From an uncultured Pelagibacteraceae bacterium (GTDB lineage: Bacteria; Pseudomonadota; Alphaproteobacteria; Pelagibacterales; Pelagibacteraceae), in assembly GCA_902535155.1 (NCBI GenBank), contig CACASB010000004.1:1-57831 (forward strand): DNA of 57,831 nucleotides, given 5' to 3'. A model generated the notes under the pieces. It had not been told where the DNA came from and ran no database searches. It saw nothing but the letters and a program-made list of their open reading frames with translations. Shown here piece after piece: positions 30,913 to 34,907 of the stretch. Numbering within the stretch: the first letter of the stretch is position 1; each line of letters starts with the position of its first letter. Position numbers and translations under genes: made by a program.

Positions 30913-31754
30913 CCCCTTAACATCTCTCTAGCATCAAAATTCAATTGAAGATCTTTCCATCTTTCATATCCAGTTGCAGGCACCCTTAAAGGCTGGCAAA
31001 GTCTAATTGCTCTTAAAGCACTTTCCGCCAGCACTTTATAAAAACCTTGTCCAGGTTTATTCATTCTAGCGTGATCTAAAATTTCCGAATTTATTACAGT
31101 ACCATCTGGTTTTAAACTTAATTTTATTCTGACCAGTAAATTTTCATTATAAGGTAATCCTAACGGAATACTCCAACAACCAAATATTTGTGCCTTCAGT
31201 GCGTCTTCCTCACTTAAAGTTAGTGCGCTAGTGGTAATATTTTTTTGGTTTGATTGGGTAATTTTGTCAGTTTTATTAGTTGTTTCTGCAGACTCCTCTT
31301 TGGATTTATCAATTAATGCAGCAATATTGTTTGGATCAAATAATTCATCTTTTTCAAATTCTGATACTTGTTTTACCTCCTCATCAATTTTTTCAGGATT
31401 CTGTAAATCCTTCTCAGGTTTTTTTACTATTTCTTCATTTTGGTCTGGTAATGGTATCGCATCAGGTTTTTCTTTCTTAATCTGTTTTGGGGGTGCTTGC
31501 TCAGAAACAATTTTTTCTTTCTCTTTAACTTTCTCTATGATTTTTTTTGCTTTAGGTGCGAATGGTATATTTGTTTTATCTGTTATCTGAATTAGTTCAA
31601 TTGATATTAGAGGGGGCAAATCTATCGGTTTTTTTGCAATGAAAGGAAAAGTAAGTGCGGTAATAACAACTAAGAATAAATGCAATGCTGAAGAAATCGC
31701 TACATTCTTAACCATCAACATGTCATCTTTTTGTAAAAGATTATTAAATTTCAT
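30909..31754 (-). CDS. tolA: TolA-type cell envelope protein
   Basis: The inner-membrane tether of the Tol-Pal system. A single N-terminal helix spans about 17-40 ([19 protein letters not shown]). A long periplasmic linker follows, rich in Lys, Glu and Pro (residues 70-170), then a C-terminal domain that begins near 180 ([20 protein letters not shown]) and includes the conserved paired cysteines and [13 protein letters not shown]. At 281 residues the linker is short compared with E. coli TolA. Assignment is supported by its place between tolR and tolB with 4-nt overlaps on both sides. Confidence 0.9.
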
Positions 31755-32167
31755 CTCTCCTTATAAGGTTCTGAAATTAAAGCCACTTTAGTAAAACCAG
31801 ACCCTGACAACATACCCATGACCTCCAGAACTCTTCCGTAGTTTATCGTTTTATCTCCCCTGACATATATTCTTGTATCTGTTCTATTTTTCGAAACAGC
31901 AAGTATTTTTGCAATTACATTGTCATAGTCAACTTTTGACTCTTGAATAAATATTTCACCCTTTGAATTGATTGTTAAAGTAAGCGGTTCTTGCTCTTCA
32001 GGTAGGGAATCTGCTGAACTTTCAGGTAGATCAACCTGAACACCTACAGTCAACAATGGAGCTGTAACCATAAAAACAATTAATAGAACAAGCATAACGT
32101 CCACGAATGGTGTAACATTTATTTCACTTATTGGTTCTTTAGAATTTTTTTTTAAACTAAAAGCCAT
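31751..32167 (-). CDS. tolR: TolR (ExbD family) proton-channel subunit
   Basis: With TolQ it converts proton-motive force into movement of TolA. An N-terminal transmembrane helix carries the essential aspartate: INVTPFVDVMLVLLIVFMV (residues 17-35). A small periplasmic domain follows with VYVRGDKTINYGRVLEVMGM-like features (IYVRGDKTINYGRVLEVM). The 138 residues are typical. It starts 4 nt after the tolQ stop and overlaps tolA by 4 nt. Confidence 0.95.
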   Translation of the reverse strand: MAFSLKKNSKEPISEINVTPFVDVMLVLLIVFMVTAPLLTVGVQVDLPESSADSLPEEQEPLTLTINSKGEIFIQESKVDYDNVIAKILAVSKNRTDTRIYVRGDKTINYGRVLEVMGMLSGSGFTKVALISEPYKER

Positions 32168-32171
32168 AAGT

Positions 32172-32846
32172 TTAAATTATAGATAGAAATCTTTTGGCAA
32201 AGTTTTCTAGTCTTTGAGAATATTTCTTAGATTCATTATTAAATTTATTGAATGCTATAACGGCAGGAATAGCTGCTAATAATCCTAACGCTGTTGCAAA
32301 TAAAGCTTCTGCAATTCCTGGCGCAACAATTGCTAAACTAGTATTTCTTGAAACAGCTATTGATTGAAATGAATTCATTATTCCCCAAACAGTCCCAAAC
32401 AAACCTATAAATGGAGCTGTAGAACCCACTGTTGCAAGAAAGGAAAAATTTTTTTCCAAAAAATTTACCTCTGTTTCTATATTTGACTCAAGCAAACCTG
32501 TTAGTTTCTCATTCAAATTATTCCTGGATCTAGATTTTAAAACTACCTGCATGGTTTTTCTAAAAACATTAGACATTGGGTCATCTTTATTAGTAGGAAG
32601 ATTATTATAAAAGCTCTCAGCAGATTTAGATTTCCAGAATTTTTCCTCAAACTCAACGGTGCTCTCGTTTATTTTTTTAAACATTTTGAATTTTTCTATA
32701 ATTATTGCCCAAGAATATATTGATGCAGCTATCAATATAATGATAACTGATTTGACAACGATATCAGCTCTTAAAAAAAGGCTCATTAAAGAGAAATCAA
32801 CAGAGCCACCTAAACCTACAGCTTGAGAAGTTATATCTGCTTCCAT
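32172..32846 (-). CDS. tolQ: TolQ (MotA/TolQ/ExbB family) proton-channel subunit
   Basis: A three-helix inner-membrane protein: the first helix is at about 28-48 (IVVKSVIIILIAASIYSWAI). The family motif LATVGSTAPFIGLFGTVWGI followed by MNSFQSIA is near 135-162, and the third helix is ALFATALGLLAAIPAVIAFN near 180. The 224 residues are normal. It is the first tol gene here; ybgC, which precedes tolQ in most proteobacteria, is absent, and only 38 bp separate it from the resolvase gene upstream. Confidence 0.95.
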   Translation of the reverse strand: MEADITSQAVGLGGSVDFSLMSLFLRADIVVKSVIIILIAASIYSWAIIIEKFKMFKKINESTVEFEEKFWKSKSAESFYNNLPTNKDDPMSNVFRKTMQVVLKSRSRNNLNEKLTGLLESNIETEVNFLEKNFSFLATVGSTAPFIGLFGTVWGIMNSFQSIAVSRNTSLAIVAPGIAEALFATALGLLAAIPAVIAFNKFNNESKKYSQRLENFAKRFLSII

Positions 32847-32884
32847 AAAAAATCTTTCACACTAAAATGTGTCATCAATTTGTC

Positions 32885-33373
32885 TTAATTTTTTTGGATT
32901 TGATAGTAAAAACTAGCAATTAATATTGCGTCAGCTTTATTAGCGTCTTTTTTTCTTGATAATTTTGAGGAAATGTAAGGAAAAAACTCAATTGCTTTAG
33001 TTCTGCTTGAATCTTTTTGAGTATTTATAAGGTTATAATACTTTTTCCATTTTACAGGTGAAACAAAGTCCATTGGTATTTGCATTGCAGAAAATATACC
33101 TTTTAATATTCCAAATGACTGTCCAAAATTGAACATACTTGTAACTCCCTGTCCAGGCATTGCCGAGACTTGTTCTATAACCACTTTAATATCTTTTTTA
33201 TCCTCATGGATAATTACCTTTTGAATTTCATTATAAATTTGTGAGCCATTAACTTGTGACTTGTTTTTTTTTCCTACAGGCATAACTGGCATATCAAATA
33301 CATCCAATATATTCCCATCTTTGAAAATACATATTGCTCCTTTTATTCCTGGATCTATACCTATAATTAACAT
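32885..33373 (-). CDS. phage-type RuvC-like Holliday junction resolvase
   Basis: A RuvC-fold nuclease of 162 residues. IGIDPGIKGAICIF carries Asp7, VVIEQVSAMPGQGVTSMFNF carries Glu67, and KKDANKADAILIASFY supplies Asp143 and Asp148, so the four-acid active site is complete. The pattern IDPGxxGA, VYDMP-like FDMPVMP and MPGQGVxSMFxFGxxFG is that of RuvC homologues known from phages and some bacteria, not of the canonical cellular RuvC (which has IDPGxxxTGYG). It should cut four-way DNA junctions. It sits between yebC and tolQ, the normal place of ruvC-ruvA-ruvB, but no ruvA or ruvB follows. Confidence 0.82.
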   Translation of the reverse strand: MLIIGIDPGIKGAICIFKDGNILDVFDMPVMPVGKKNKSQVNGSQIYNEIQKVIIHEDKKDIKVVIEQVSAMPGQGVTSMFNFGQSFGILKGIFSAMQIPMDFVSPVKWKKYYNLINTQKDSSRTKAIEFFPYISSKLSRKKDANKADAILIASFYYQIQKN

Positions 33374-33376
33374 GCT

Positions 33377-34099
33377 TTATTCCAAAATTTCTAAGTTTGA
33401 GTAAACCTTTTGTACATCATCGTGATCTTCTAGAGTTTCTAAAAACTTTGTGGCTTCTGCAAATTGTACTTTATTTAACTTAACTTTATTAAGAGGATGC
33501 CACTCAATATTTGTAGACAAAAATTTATTAATTTTTTTCTCCATAATTTTTTTCACATCATAAATATTTTCTTTTTTGCAATGTATTTCATGATAACTCT
33601 CATTTGAAAAGCATTCATCTGCTCCAGAATTTATTGCTATTTCAAGCATAGTATCAACATCTATTTGCTCGGCATCTATTCTTATAATTCCAAGATGTTT
33701 AAAATTATGTGCAGCTGAGCCTTGGGTTCCCAAATTTCCACTATTTTTTTGGAAAATTTCTCGTATTTTTGATGCTGTTCTGTTTTTATTATCAGTTAAT
33801 GCCTCTACTATTACTGCGAGTTTATAGTTACCAAATCCCTCATATCTTATTTCATCAAAATTAGATTGATCATTAAATTTTGATTTATCAATTGCTCTAT
33901 CAATATTATCTTTTGGCATATTAGCTGATCTTGCCGCTTGAATAGCAGACCTTAATCTAGGGTTAATATCAGGGTCCTTATCACCTAACTTTGCTGCGAC
34001 GGTAATTTCTCTGGATAATTTTGAGAAAATTTTCGACCTTTCCTTGTCTGCTCTTCCTTTTTTATGTTTAATTCCAGCCCAATGTGAATGACCCGCCAT
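33377..34099 (-). CDS. yebC: YebC/PmpR family regulatory and translation protein
   Basis: A TACO1-family protein. Members act as DNA-binding regulators, and more recently some were linked to translation of proline-rich stretches. It begins with the family start MAGHSHWAGIKHKKGRADKE. I therefore use ATG 34099 instead of the in-frame extension to 34123, which would overlap the upstream gene. DINPRLRSAIQAARSANMPK followed by DNIDRAIDK and YEGFG are present. Length is 240. It lies 3 nt before the resolvase gene, keeping the yebC-ruvC adjacency common in alphaproteobacteria. Confidence 0.94.
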   Translation of the reverse strand: MAGHSHWAGIKHKKGRADKERSKIFSKLSREITVAAKLGDKDPDINPRLRSAIQAARSANMPKDNIDRAIDKSKFNDQSNFDEIRYEGFGNYKLAVIVEALTDNKNRTASKIREIFQKNSGNLGTQGSAAHNFKHLGIIRIDAEQIDVDTMLEIAINSGADECFSNESYHEIHCKKENIYDVKKIMEKKINKFLSTNIEWHPLNKVKLNKVQFAEATKFLETLEDHDDVQKVYSNLEILE

Positions 34100-34100
34100 A

Positions 34101-34907
34101 TTAAATTGTGTTTTGCAGCACACCCCCCATTAAGAAACTTTTAATTTTCTTAGTTAAACCAGTCTCAGTGCAACAATCGACAACAACCCCTGATAATGTT
34201 CCTTCCCCTAAAGACGGGAAATGTTTTTCAGATTTTTTCTTAAAAAATTTATTTATTGAATTATCTTTATCCATACCTATTACAGAATCGTAATCACCGC
34301 ACATTCCAGAATCTGTTATATACGCAGAACCTTTTCTTAAAATTCTTGCATCATTTGTTGGTACATGAGTATGGGTACCTGTTATTAATGTTGCCTTACC
34401 ATCAAATAAATGACTAATGGCCATTTTTTCACTGGTTATTTCTCCATGGAAATCAACTATTAAAAAATCATAATCTTTTTTAAGGTTATGATCTCTAAGA
34501 AATTTTTCTGTTTCTATAAAAACATCATTGCATTTTTTCATAAAAACGTTTCCCATCAAATTTAAAACACCAATTTTGAAATTATTTTTAGTAGTAAAAA
34601 TTTCAAAACCTCTTCCTGGAGCGGGAGAAATTAAGTTATGAGGTCTTAAGAGTTTTTTTTCTTTCTCAATATACTCAACGGTTTCCTTTTGATCCCATAC
34701 GTGGTTTCCTGTTGTTATCACATTAATTCCACATTGAAATAGTTCATTAGAAATTTTTTTGGTTATTCCTACTCCACTGTCAGCTGCATTTTCACCATTA
34801 GCGACAACAAATTCTAAATTATTTTGTTTGATTAAACTCGGTAAAAACTTTTTAATAACATTACAGCCAGAAGGTCCAACAATATCTCCTAGAAAAAGTA
34901 TTCTCAT
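34101..34907 (-). CDS. YmdB family metallophosphoesterase
   Basis: A 268-residue metallophosphoesterase of the TIGR00282/YmdB type. The di-metal ligands are visible in LFLGDIVGPSG (Asp), VVANGENAADSGVGIT (Asn/Glu), TTGNHVWDQKE (Asn-His), VDFHGEITSEK (His) and GTHTHVPTNDARIL (His). Studied Bacillus YmdB hydrolyses 2',3'-cyclic nucleotides, so a similar activity is possible. The order 5-FTHF cyclo-ligase, YmdB, YebC is widespread in alphaproteobacteria. Its ATG overlaps the preceding stop by 4 nt. Confidence 0.88.
   Translation of the reverse strand: MRILFLGDIVGPSGCNVIKKFLPSLIKQNNLEFVVANGENAADSGVGITKKISNELFQCGINVITTGNHVWDQKETVEYIEKEKKLLRPHNLISPAPGRGFEIFTTKNNFKIGVLNLMGNVFMKKCNDVFIETEKFLRDHNLKKDYDFLIVDFHGEITSEKMAISHLFDGKATLITGTHTHVPTNDARILRKGSAYITDSGMCGDYDSVIGMDKDNSINKFFKKKSEKHFPSLGEGTLSGVVVDCCTETGLTKKIKSFLMGGVLQNTI

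Follow-up and report, generated by a model that had tools for sequence, protein, structure and literature searches.

A phage-type, MOC1-like Holliday junction resolvase gene appears to occupy the former ruvCAB place in SAR11 bacteria

RuvABC appears to have been lost in SAR11 bacteria and to have given way, at its place in the chromosome, to one small nuclease of phage type. The window, by which we mean the whole stretch of 57,831 nucleotides analysed here, is SAR11 DNA and is 87% identical across 10.4 kb to the SAR11 record AG-917-B07; the genome from which it comes comprises 0.88 Mb in 36 contigs and is 75% complete. With a probability of roughly 0.85 we propose that the gene between yebC and tolQ specifies a resolvase of the MOC1/phage type with an RNase H fold, which acts alone and probably as a dimer, that this gene replaced ruvC, ruvA and ruvB in place, and that RecG serves for branch migration. 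Stand-alone resolvases are known in plastids and phages.

The minus strand of the window has the gene order ymdB-yebC-resolvase-tolQ-tolR, with the following features:

34101..34907, minus strand: ymdB-like gene upstream of yebC, a conserved flank, confirmed by HMM
33377..34099, minus strand: yebC, left border of the slot, confirmed by HMM
32885..33373, minus strand: MOC1-like/phage-type RuvC-fold Holliday junction resolvase of 162 amino acids, in the former ruvCAB slot
32172..32846, minus strand: tolQ, right border of the slot, confirmed by HMM
31751..32167, minus strand: tolR, a conserved flank, named by its place after tolQ

The resolvase frame begins with ATG, 3 nt past the yebC stop, and ends 38 nt ahead of tolQ. 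No second gene was found between yebC and tolQ in the window, and the preliminary description of this DNA was thus right in placing a lone gene (ORF 32885-33373) between these two HMM-confirmed borders. Its statement that ybgC has gone applies to the window locus, but two genomes of divergent genera of the same family (G030 and G009) retain ybgC between the resolvase gene and tolQ. As to yebC itself, its longest frame, which opens at GTG 34123, extends into the upstream gene (window positions 33377-34123), while the conserved start MAGHSHWAGIKHKKG corresponds to ATG 34099.

What the slot after yebC normally contains was read from RuvB-positive control genomes. Three of them (G203, G193 and G199) show yebC-ruvC-ruvA-ruvB-ybgC-tolQ-tolR, the order that had been given for many alphaproteobacteria, and a fourth (G190) has yebC, a methyltransferase-like ORF, ruvC, ruvA and ruvB. 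RuvC follows yebC in all seven RuvB-positive genomes read (these four plus G197, G205 and G341), in G190 with the one ORF between; in G205, ruvB is located away from the yebC locus. Since RuvB-positive genomes carry RuvC after yebC, the resolvase gene can be said to occupy the former place of ruvCAB.

The replaced genes were searched for across genomes, f1 denoting the window's family and f2 the only other sampled family of its order. RuvA, for which the 75% complete source genome alone was searched, gave no match there, while 10 of 14 controls were positive. With the specific RuvB model TIGR00635, not one of 118 f1 genomes, the source genome included, exceeded the cut-off (best score 38.4 bits versus 299.05), nor did any of 97 genomes of the order, and 10 of 14 controls passed. 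Canonical RuvC (PF02075) was likewise found in none of the 97 order genomes and in 8 of 14 controls. At the level of the class, 169 of 190 genomes have RuvB with an E value of 1e-30 or better, and 21 are RuvB-negative. Because no sampled f1 genome passes the specific RuvB cut-off, the absence of RuvB from the source genome is not a mere assembly gap. The claim that ruvA and ruvB are missing, for which intact ruvAB elsewhere in the genome would have been fatal, therefore stood up to the genome-wide search.

The broad Pfam model RuvB_N yielded four weak matches in the source genome, two of them just over the cut-off (29.1 and 30.6 versus 27 bits), in frames of 426-801 amino acids. We rejected them as true RuvB, given that the same model is positive in 14 of 14 controls including archaea and that TIGR00635 reaches 38.4 bits at best; they are read as a general AAA+ signal from other AAA+ proteins.

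A search for RecG, which had been suggested as an alternative helicase, detected a RecG-like protein in the source genome at 634.7 bits (positions 2-626 of 629), slightly below the curated cut-off of 659.4. Such proteins score above 450 bits in 97 of the 118 f1 genomes; none of these genomes reaches the curated cut-off, the best scoring 658.4 bits, and 8 of 14 controls do. Because RuvAB is absent and a RecG-like protein was found, RecG is a candidate branch-migration partner of the resolvase.

The resolvase gene is a regular constituent of the family. It was detected in 101 of 118 sampled f1 genomes and in 42 of 45 high-quality ones; among the three high-quality genomes without it, two (G097 and G058) lack a YebC match too, and in the third (G023) the contig ends within yebC. 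All 30 fetched f1 loci have the order ymdB-yebC-resolvase-tolQ, one of them with ybgC between the last two genes. A wider view comes from named genomes, scanned with a query set headed by a viral protein: the best 80 of at least 572 relatives (among at least 598 candidates) all bear the title Pelagibacteraceae or Pelagibacterales, and 79 of these 80 loci show yebC-resolvase-tolQ, the 80th having a short flank without a TolQ match. In the order sample, the MOC1-like gene is found in 47 of 48 f1 genomes and in none of 49 f2 genomes, and in the class sample the protein occurs in 3 of 190 genomes, all three of which are RuvB-negative and two of which belong to one family. Values of dN/dS range from 0.02 to 0.13 over 23 pairs and from 0.02 to 0.06 against the two closest relatives tested; judged by these codon comparisons the gene is under strong purifying selection. 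Presence in 101 of the family's genomes together with the dN/dS of 0.02-0.06 goes far beyond chance. Two oddities among the matches are probably assembly effects: one (G045:C44:72183-72521) lies inside an 813-amino-acid open frame and begins at query residue 49, and genome G047 has two equal-scoring copies on separate contigs (C17 and C20).

These data also bear on the idea that the arrangement is an artefact of assembly or binning, with viral sequence joined to a SAR11 contig and ruvAB residing in the missing quarter of the genome. The source genome, at 75% completeness and in 36 contigs, would leave room for it, but the gene order is kept in the single-contig, 99-100% complete genomes G003, G017, G026 and G035, and in G009 with ybgC between, RuvB being under the cut-off in all five, and it recurs in the 79 named records. 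The complete genomes refute this explanation, whose probability we put at practically nil.

The protein itself is of the phage-like type of RuvC-fold nuclease, as had been noted in the preliminary description. Canonical RuvC models failed: it scored 16.1 bits with PF02075 (cut-off 22.2) and 17.8 bits with NF000711 (cut-off 163), and for TIGR00228 no match was listed at E values up to 1. Its best family match is PHROG 1770, 'Holliday junction resolvase', with 130.6 bits over residues 1-158. MOC1 accounts for nine of ten matches in a search of PDB sequences (best E 9.4e-15). An AlphaFold2 model (pLDDT 87.3, pTM 0.85) retrieved MOC1 in all of its top 12 Foldseek matches, and in the VIA comparison MOC1 reached a Z score of 22.5, filling the top nine rows, with RuvC no higher than 17.9. 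By sequence and by predicted fold, the protein is closest to chloroplast MOC1.

The full-length profile match and the MOC1 fold place the protein in the MOC1-type/PHROG 1770 group. It departs from the narrow plant MOC1 type in its catalytic tetrad, where D7, G9, E67 and D148 make three of four positions acidic, and in the cytosine-reading D183 loop, where it has Q75, invariant in 17 family members; because the tetrad is only three-quarters acidic, we filed it as MOC1-like and not as MOC1. Nor is it canonical RuvC on curated scores, on the presence of RuvAB in the same genome or on tree position. With MOC1 of plants and green algae (PDB 6kvn, 6is8, 8kfv) it shares the RNase H fold (Z 22.5, rmsd 1.9 over 159 residues), the catalytic D116, E175 and E258 (the last as D), the active-site lysine and the stand-alone character, whereas it has G9 for D118, Q75 for D183, M72 for Y180 and A144 for H254, is about 30% identical and is encoded on a bacterial chromosome at the ruv locus. 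With canonical RuvC, which works with RuvAB, it has in common the fold (Z up to 17.9), the place after yebC and the GIDPG start of the active site, but it fails the RuvC models, sits on a separate tree branch and belongs to a family in which the sampled RuvB scores stay under the cut-off. The RuvC of a Lactococcus phage (4ktw) is also a phage resolvase with the RuvC fold and reportedly works without RuvAB; it matches only weakly in sequence (E 0.55) and has a lower fold score (Z 15.3). Archaeal Hjc and the phage PD-(D/E)XK resolvases have another fold, and the window protein is not of that kind.

Relatives of the window protein are common in viruses. Its identity is 32-43% with nine phage proteins and 39-48% with the best 80 viral loci; tblastn gave matches in 110 phage records, and a query of viral stretches with an alignment returned at least 588 relatives among at least 600 candidates (a single-protein query of viral contigs had found none). 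The PHROG 1770 members of Salmonella phage epsilon15, Planktothrix phage PaV-LD and Microcystis phage Mwe-JY08 represent the best family match; they differ in that identity stays at or below 48% in the best 80 viral loci and that the window gene has a fixed place in the chromosome, without phage genes beside it. The 208 viral loci were fetched with flanks of up to 5 kb (MOC1 type) or 1 kb (other types), and none of them matches the yebC, tolQ, tolR or ymdB of the window, which speaks against their being mislabelled host loci. MOC1-like phage proteins are already known: one phage record cites CDD cd22992 MOC1 and another names MOC1.

For phylogeny, 116 distinct rows were drawn from 133 loci (among them 10 of the 80 named loci, every eighth), the window and two plant fragments, and identity thinning left 58 rows. 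In the resulting tree the SAR11 proteins form one branch (100/96) among viral proteins. When 11 alphaproteobacterial RuvCs were included and seven long-branch viral rows dropped, RuvC and SAR11 each formed a branch of their own (100/100 and 98/96, respectively). This outcome, with phage and SAR11 rows in the tree and the 11 RuvCs apart, agrees with the proposal that the protein lies outside canonical cellular RuvC.

Could the protein nevertheless be a vertically inherited cellular RuvC that diverged rapidly after the loss of RuvAB, with no phage-type newcomer involved? It occupies the slot of ruvC, it has GIDPG at the first catalytic position as several of the aligned RuvCs do, and in an AU test a placement of SAR11 on the RuvC side of all viral proteins was not rejected (p 0.254). 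We consider such an origin unlikely all the same. The scores are far under the RuvC cut-offs (17.8 versus 163 for NF000711, 16.1 versus 22.2 for PF02075), while five RuvCs from the same slot of other alphaproteobacteria reach 98-162 bits with TIGR00228; the identities to phage proteins and viral loci are those given above; RuvC separates at 100/100; and in f2 the slot is filled by a PD-(D/E)XK nuclease, whose other fold is beyond the reach of divergence. Going by these sequence relationships, acquisition of the SAR11 resolvase from a phage is likely, though not proven.

Residue correspondences were taken from the PDB sequence-search alignment of the window protein to tobacco MOC1 (NtMOC1):

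33353..33355, minus strand: codon of D7, aligned with catalytic D116 of NtMOC1
33173..33175, minus strand: codon of E67, aligned with catalytic E175 of NtMOC1
33149..33160, minus strand: M72-P-G-Q75, counterpart of the MOC1 base-recognition loop, NtMOC1 Y180 and D183 aligning with M72 and Q75
33014..33016, minus strand: codon of K120, aligned with NtMOC1 K230 and, by a one-residue numbering offset, taken as the counterpart of maize MOC1 K229
32945..32947, minus strand: codon of D143, aligned with NtMOC1 D253, which was mutated there without effect
32930..32932, minus strand: codon of D148, aligned with catalytic E258 of NtMOC1

D7, E67, D143 and D148 as well as residues 71-88 (AMPGQGVTSMFNFGQSFG) are invariant across 17 aligned family members. 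K120, the MOC1-type lysine, is invariant in 7 SAR11 sequences, 9 phage sequences and one from family f119, and the MPGQG loop is identical in four of the nine aligned phage proteins. According to PMC7078210, the catalytic tetrad of tobacco MOC1 consists of D116, D118, E175 and E258, cytosine is read by D183 and intercalation is by Y180; D118 and D183 are essential and D253 is dispensable. For maize MOC1, PMC11183143 describes a strong impairment by replacement of K229 with alanine and a role of H253 in holding a third metal ion, the H253A variant having significantly lower activity; RuvC likewise is without the D117/D118 acid. The counterpart of maize H253 (NtMOC1 H254 by the offset) is A144, the neighbour of D143.

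The four active-site acids named in the preliminary description are all present and invariant, but D143 should not count as an established one because mutation of D253 was without effect in tobacco MOC1 (PMC7078210). From the alignment, the chemistry looks RuvC/MOC1-like with three acids, and the invariant glutamine of the base-recognition loop predicts a cleavage preference unlike that of MOC1. Activity or specificity may differ from MOC1 because G9 replaces D118, Q75 replaces D183 and A144 replaces H253.

The altered loop leaves some room for another function, namely that of a domesticated phage gene that is not the cell's general resolvase and serves, for example, in debranching of replication intermediates or in flap or three-way junction cleavage. 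A paper on a phage RuvC (PMC3864405) describes resolvases of viruses as typically more promiscuous, and the base-recognition residues of the window protein are unlike those of MOC1. To us this seems improbable in view of a gene that is fixed at the ruv locus, near-universal in its family and under strong purifying selection, in sampled genomes from which RuvC and RuvB are both gone with none left for the task; moreover, the nucleases found at the same site in other families are labelled Holliday junction resolvases.

The preferred reading therefore remains replacement of the cellular RuvABC by a stand-alone resolvase, an idea of the preliminary description that is supported by location, family-wide presence and the zero counts for RuvB (118 genomes) and RuvC (97 genomes). 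To that description the analysis adds the kinship with MOC1, the family-wide extent of the change and the presence of other resolvases in this slot in other lineages. In this model the resolvase would have replaced ruvC-ruvA-ruvB between yebC and (ybgC-)tolQ in the ancestor of the window's SAR11 family. Its base-recognition loop would open the four-way junction, and two symmetric, metal-dependent nicks would be made by D7, E67 and D148 with the assistance of K120, while RecG instead of RuvAB would drive branch migration. That the window resolvase cleaves junctions, forms a dimer and works with RecG we infer from the features described above.

The slot after yebC has received other proteins elsewhere. 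In f2 it contains a PD-(D/E)XK nuclease of 123-127 amino acids in 15 of 15 loci (a further f2 genome, G168, is without a YebC match). Seven aligned members show an E...D...ExK pattern. The one scanned by profiles (from G119) scored 32.7 bits with PDDEXK_15 (cut-off 27), 14.5 bits with the Hjc Pfam model, which is under the cut-off of 21.1, and 74.8 bits with PHROG 244, labelled RusA-like Holliday junction resolvase. It is 53% identical to a protein of Roseobacter phage CRP-810 which is annotated as a Holliday junction resolvase (PMC11288001). When profiles of the f2-type and PHROG 2002-type nucleases were run against the PDB, six matches resembling designed proteins and one further match at E 0.11 came up; none was used.

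The yebC locus was read in all 21 RuvB-negative genomes of the class, the last of which (G358) was identified by elimination. Nine of them have a phage-type resolvase directly after yebC, the slot proteins of G234 and G339 being placed by similarity alone:

G000 and G009 (f1): MOC1-like resolvase after yebC
G302 (f119): divergent MOC1-like slot protein, PHROG 1770 with 79 bits
G358 and G234 (f51): PDDEXK_15 with 76.6 bits and PHROG 244 with 54.2 bits, both scores for G358
G345 (f142), G215 (f32), G208 and G339 (f25): PHROG 2002 Holliday junction resolvase, with 41.4, 35.6 and 28.7 bits for the first three

The slot nucleases of f51, f142, f32 and f25, four further RuvB-negative families, are likewise of the PD-(D/E)XK kind, though different from that of f2. 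Another five genomes (G292, G303, G333, G229 and G269) keep a canonical-looking RuvC after yebC, and thus RuvB loss does not always bring a resolvase swap; the RuvCs of G292, G303 and G333 were tested by HMM, and that of G333 falls barely below the TIGR00228 cut-off. Neither a phage-type resolvase nor RuvC was seen in the stretch covered for five more (G287, G202, G257, G318 and G355), and two (G296 and G311) have no YebC match. The genomes G303 (locus L090), G292 (L098) and G333 (L109) are examples of RuvC without detectable RuvB, and two of them are 99-100% complete.

We lean, with some reserve, towards the view that in Alphaproteobacteria with small genomes incoming genes have repeatedly landed in the slot after yebC, RuvABC having been lost and different phage-type stand-alone resolvases acquired there on at least three occasions, perhaps five. 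With the same reserve, the acquired types would be the MOC1-like protein in f1, the divergent MOC1-like one in f119, two distinct PDDEXK_15/PHROG 244 proteins, one in f2 and the other in f51, and PHROG 2002 in f25, f32 and f142. Resolution in SAR11 would accordingly be accomplished by a one-protein machine that is uncoupled from branch migration, has a cleavage specificity of its own and is convergent with the chloroplast kit. Whether f119 acquired its gene separately can be stated only as a possibility, because SAR11 and f119 as one clade was not rejected in the AU test (p 0.125); the tree place of the f119 protein shifts once plant MOC1 is removed.

In near-surface ocean waters SAR11 outnumbers every other planktonic group, and marine SAR11 isolates, unlike freshwater ones, show recombination rates among the highest reported for bacteria (PMC7542561). 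In a 2025 analysis, as far as its main text goes, SAR11 is described as missing the RecBCD, RecF, MutS and MutL genes, and that text contains no word starting with 'ruv' or 'resolvase' (PMC12374537). By contrast, a survey has small-genome marine cyanobacteria retain ruvABC (PMC5101192). Passages on ruv, resolvase or Holliday were looked for in PMC3815206 and PMC4053759 and not found, and PMC3686209 names a 'Putative Holliday junction resolvase, core'. In open-licence PubMed Central we found no report of RuvABC loss in SAR11 or of a resolvase swap at the yebC slot. The enzyme type is known; its setting appears to be new, and recurrent replacement at one locus appears to be undescribed. The 'core' resolvase just mentioned may be YqgF/RuvX and was not used as evidence. 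If our reading is true, the last step of SAR11 recombination will be seen differently, in a way that is testable with one small protein, and the repeated swap at one locus represents a natural experiment on the needs of a minimal resolution system.

Phage relatives exist for all types of slot resolvase, MOC1-like and PD-(D/E)XK alike. For the f51-type protein, tblastn found matches in 95 phage records (best identity 45%); the PHROG 2002 type matched two phage records, and its identity to viral-contig proteins reaches 81%. The 81% refers to a protein on viral contig L357 and the slot resolvase of f142, which brings phage and host closer together than the maximum of 48% seen for the SAR11 protein; the ORF that precedes this protein resembles, by eye, a terminase small subunit (the two lie at L357 1001-1288 and 354-752). 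At the f51 locus of G234 (L405) the resolvase gene is directly followed by TilS-like and FtsH-like ORFs, named by eye, and ybgC, tolQ and tolR are without a match on the 10 kb stretch. It looks as though ruvCAB-ybgC-tol-pal had been lost in one piece and a resolvase had remained there instead.

Chloroplast MOC1 may itself stem from a phage-type resolvase, perhaps that of a cyanophage, the branches concerned being long. Plant MOC1 groups with PaV-LD and a pair of viral contigs (L044, L123 and L183; support 98/95 when the tree contains f119), and the same rows are nearest by path when f119 is left out. In a tblastn search with tobacco MOC1, an Erythrobacter phage ranks first (34.4% identity), and PaV-LD reaches 34.0%.
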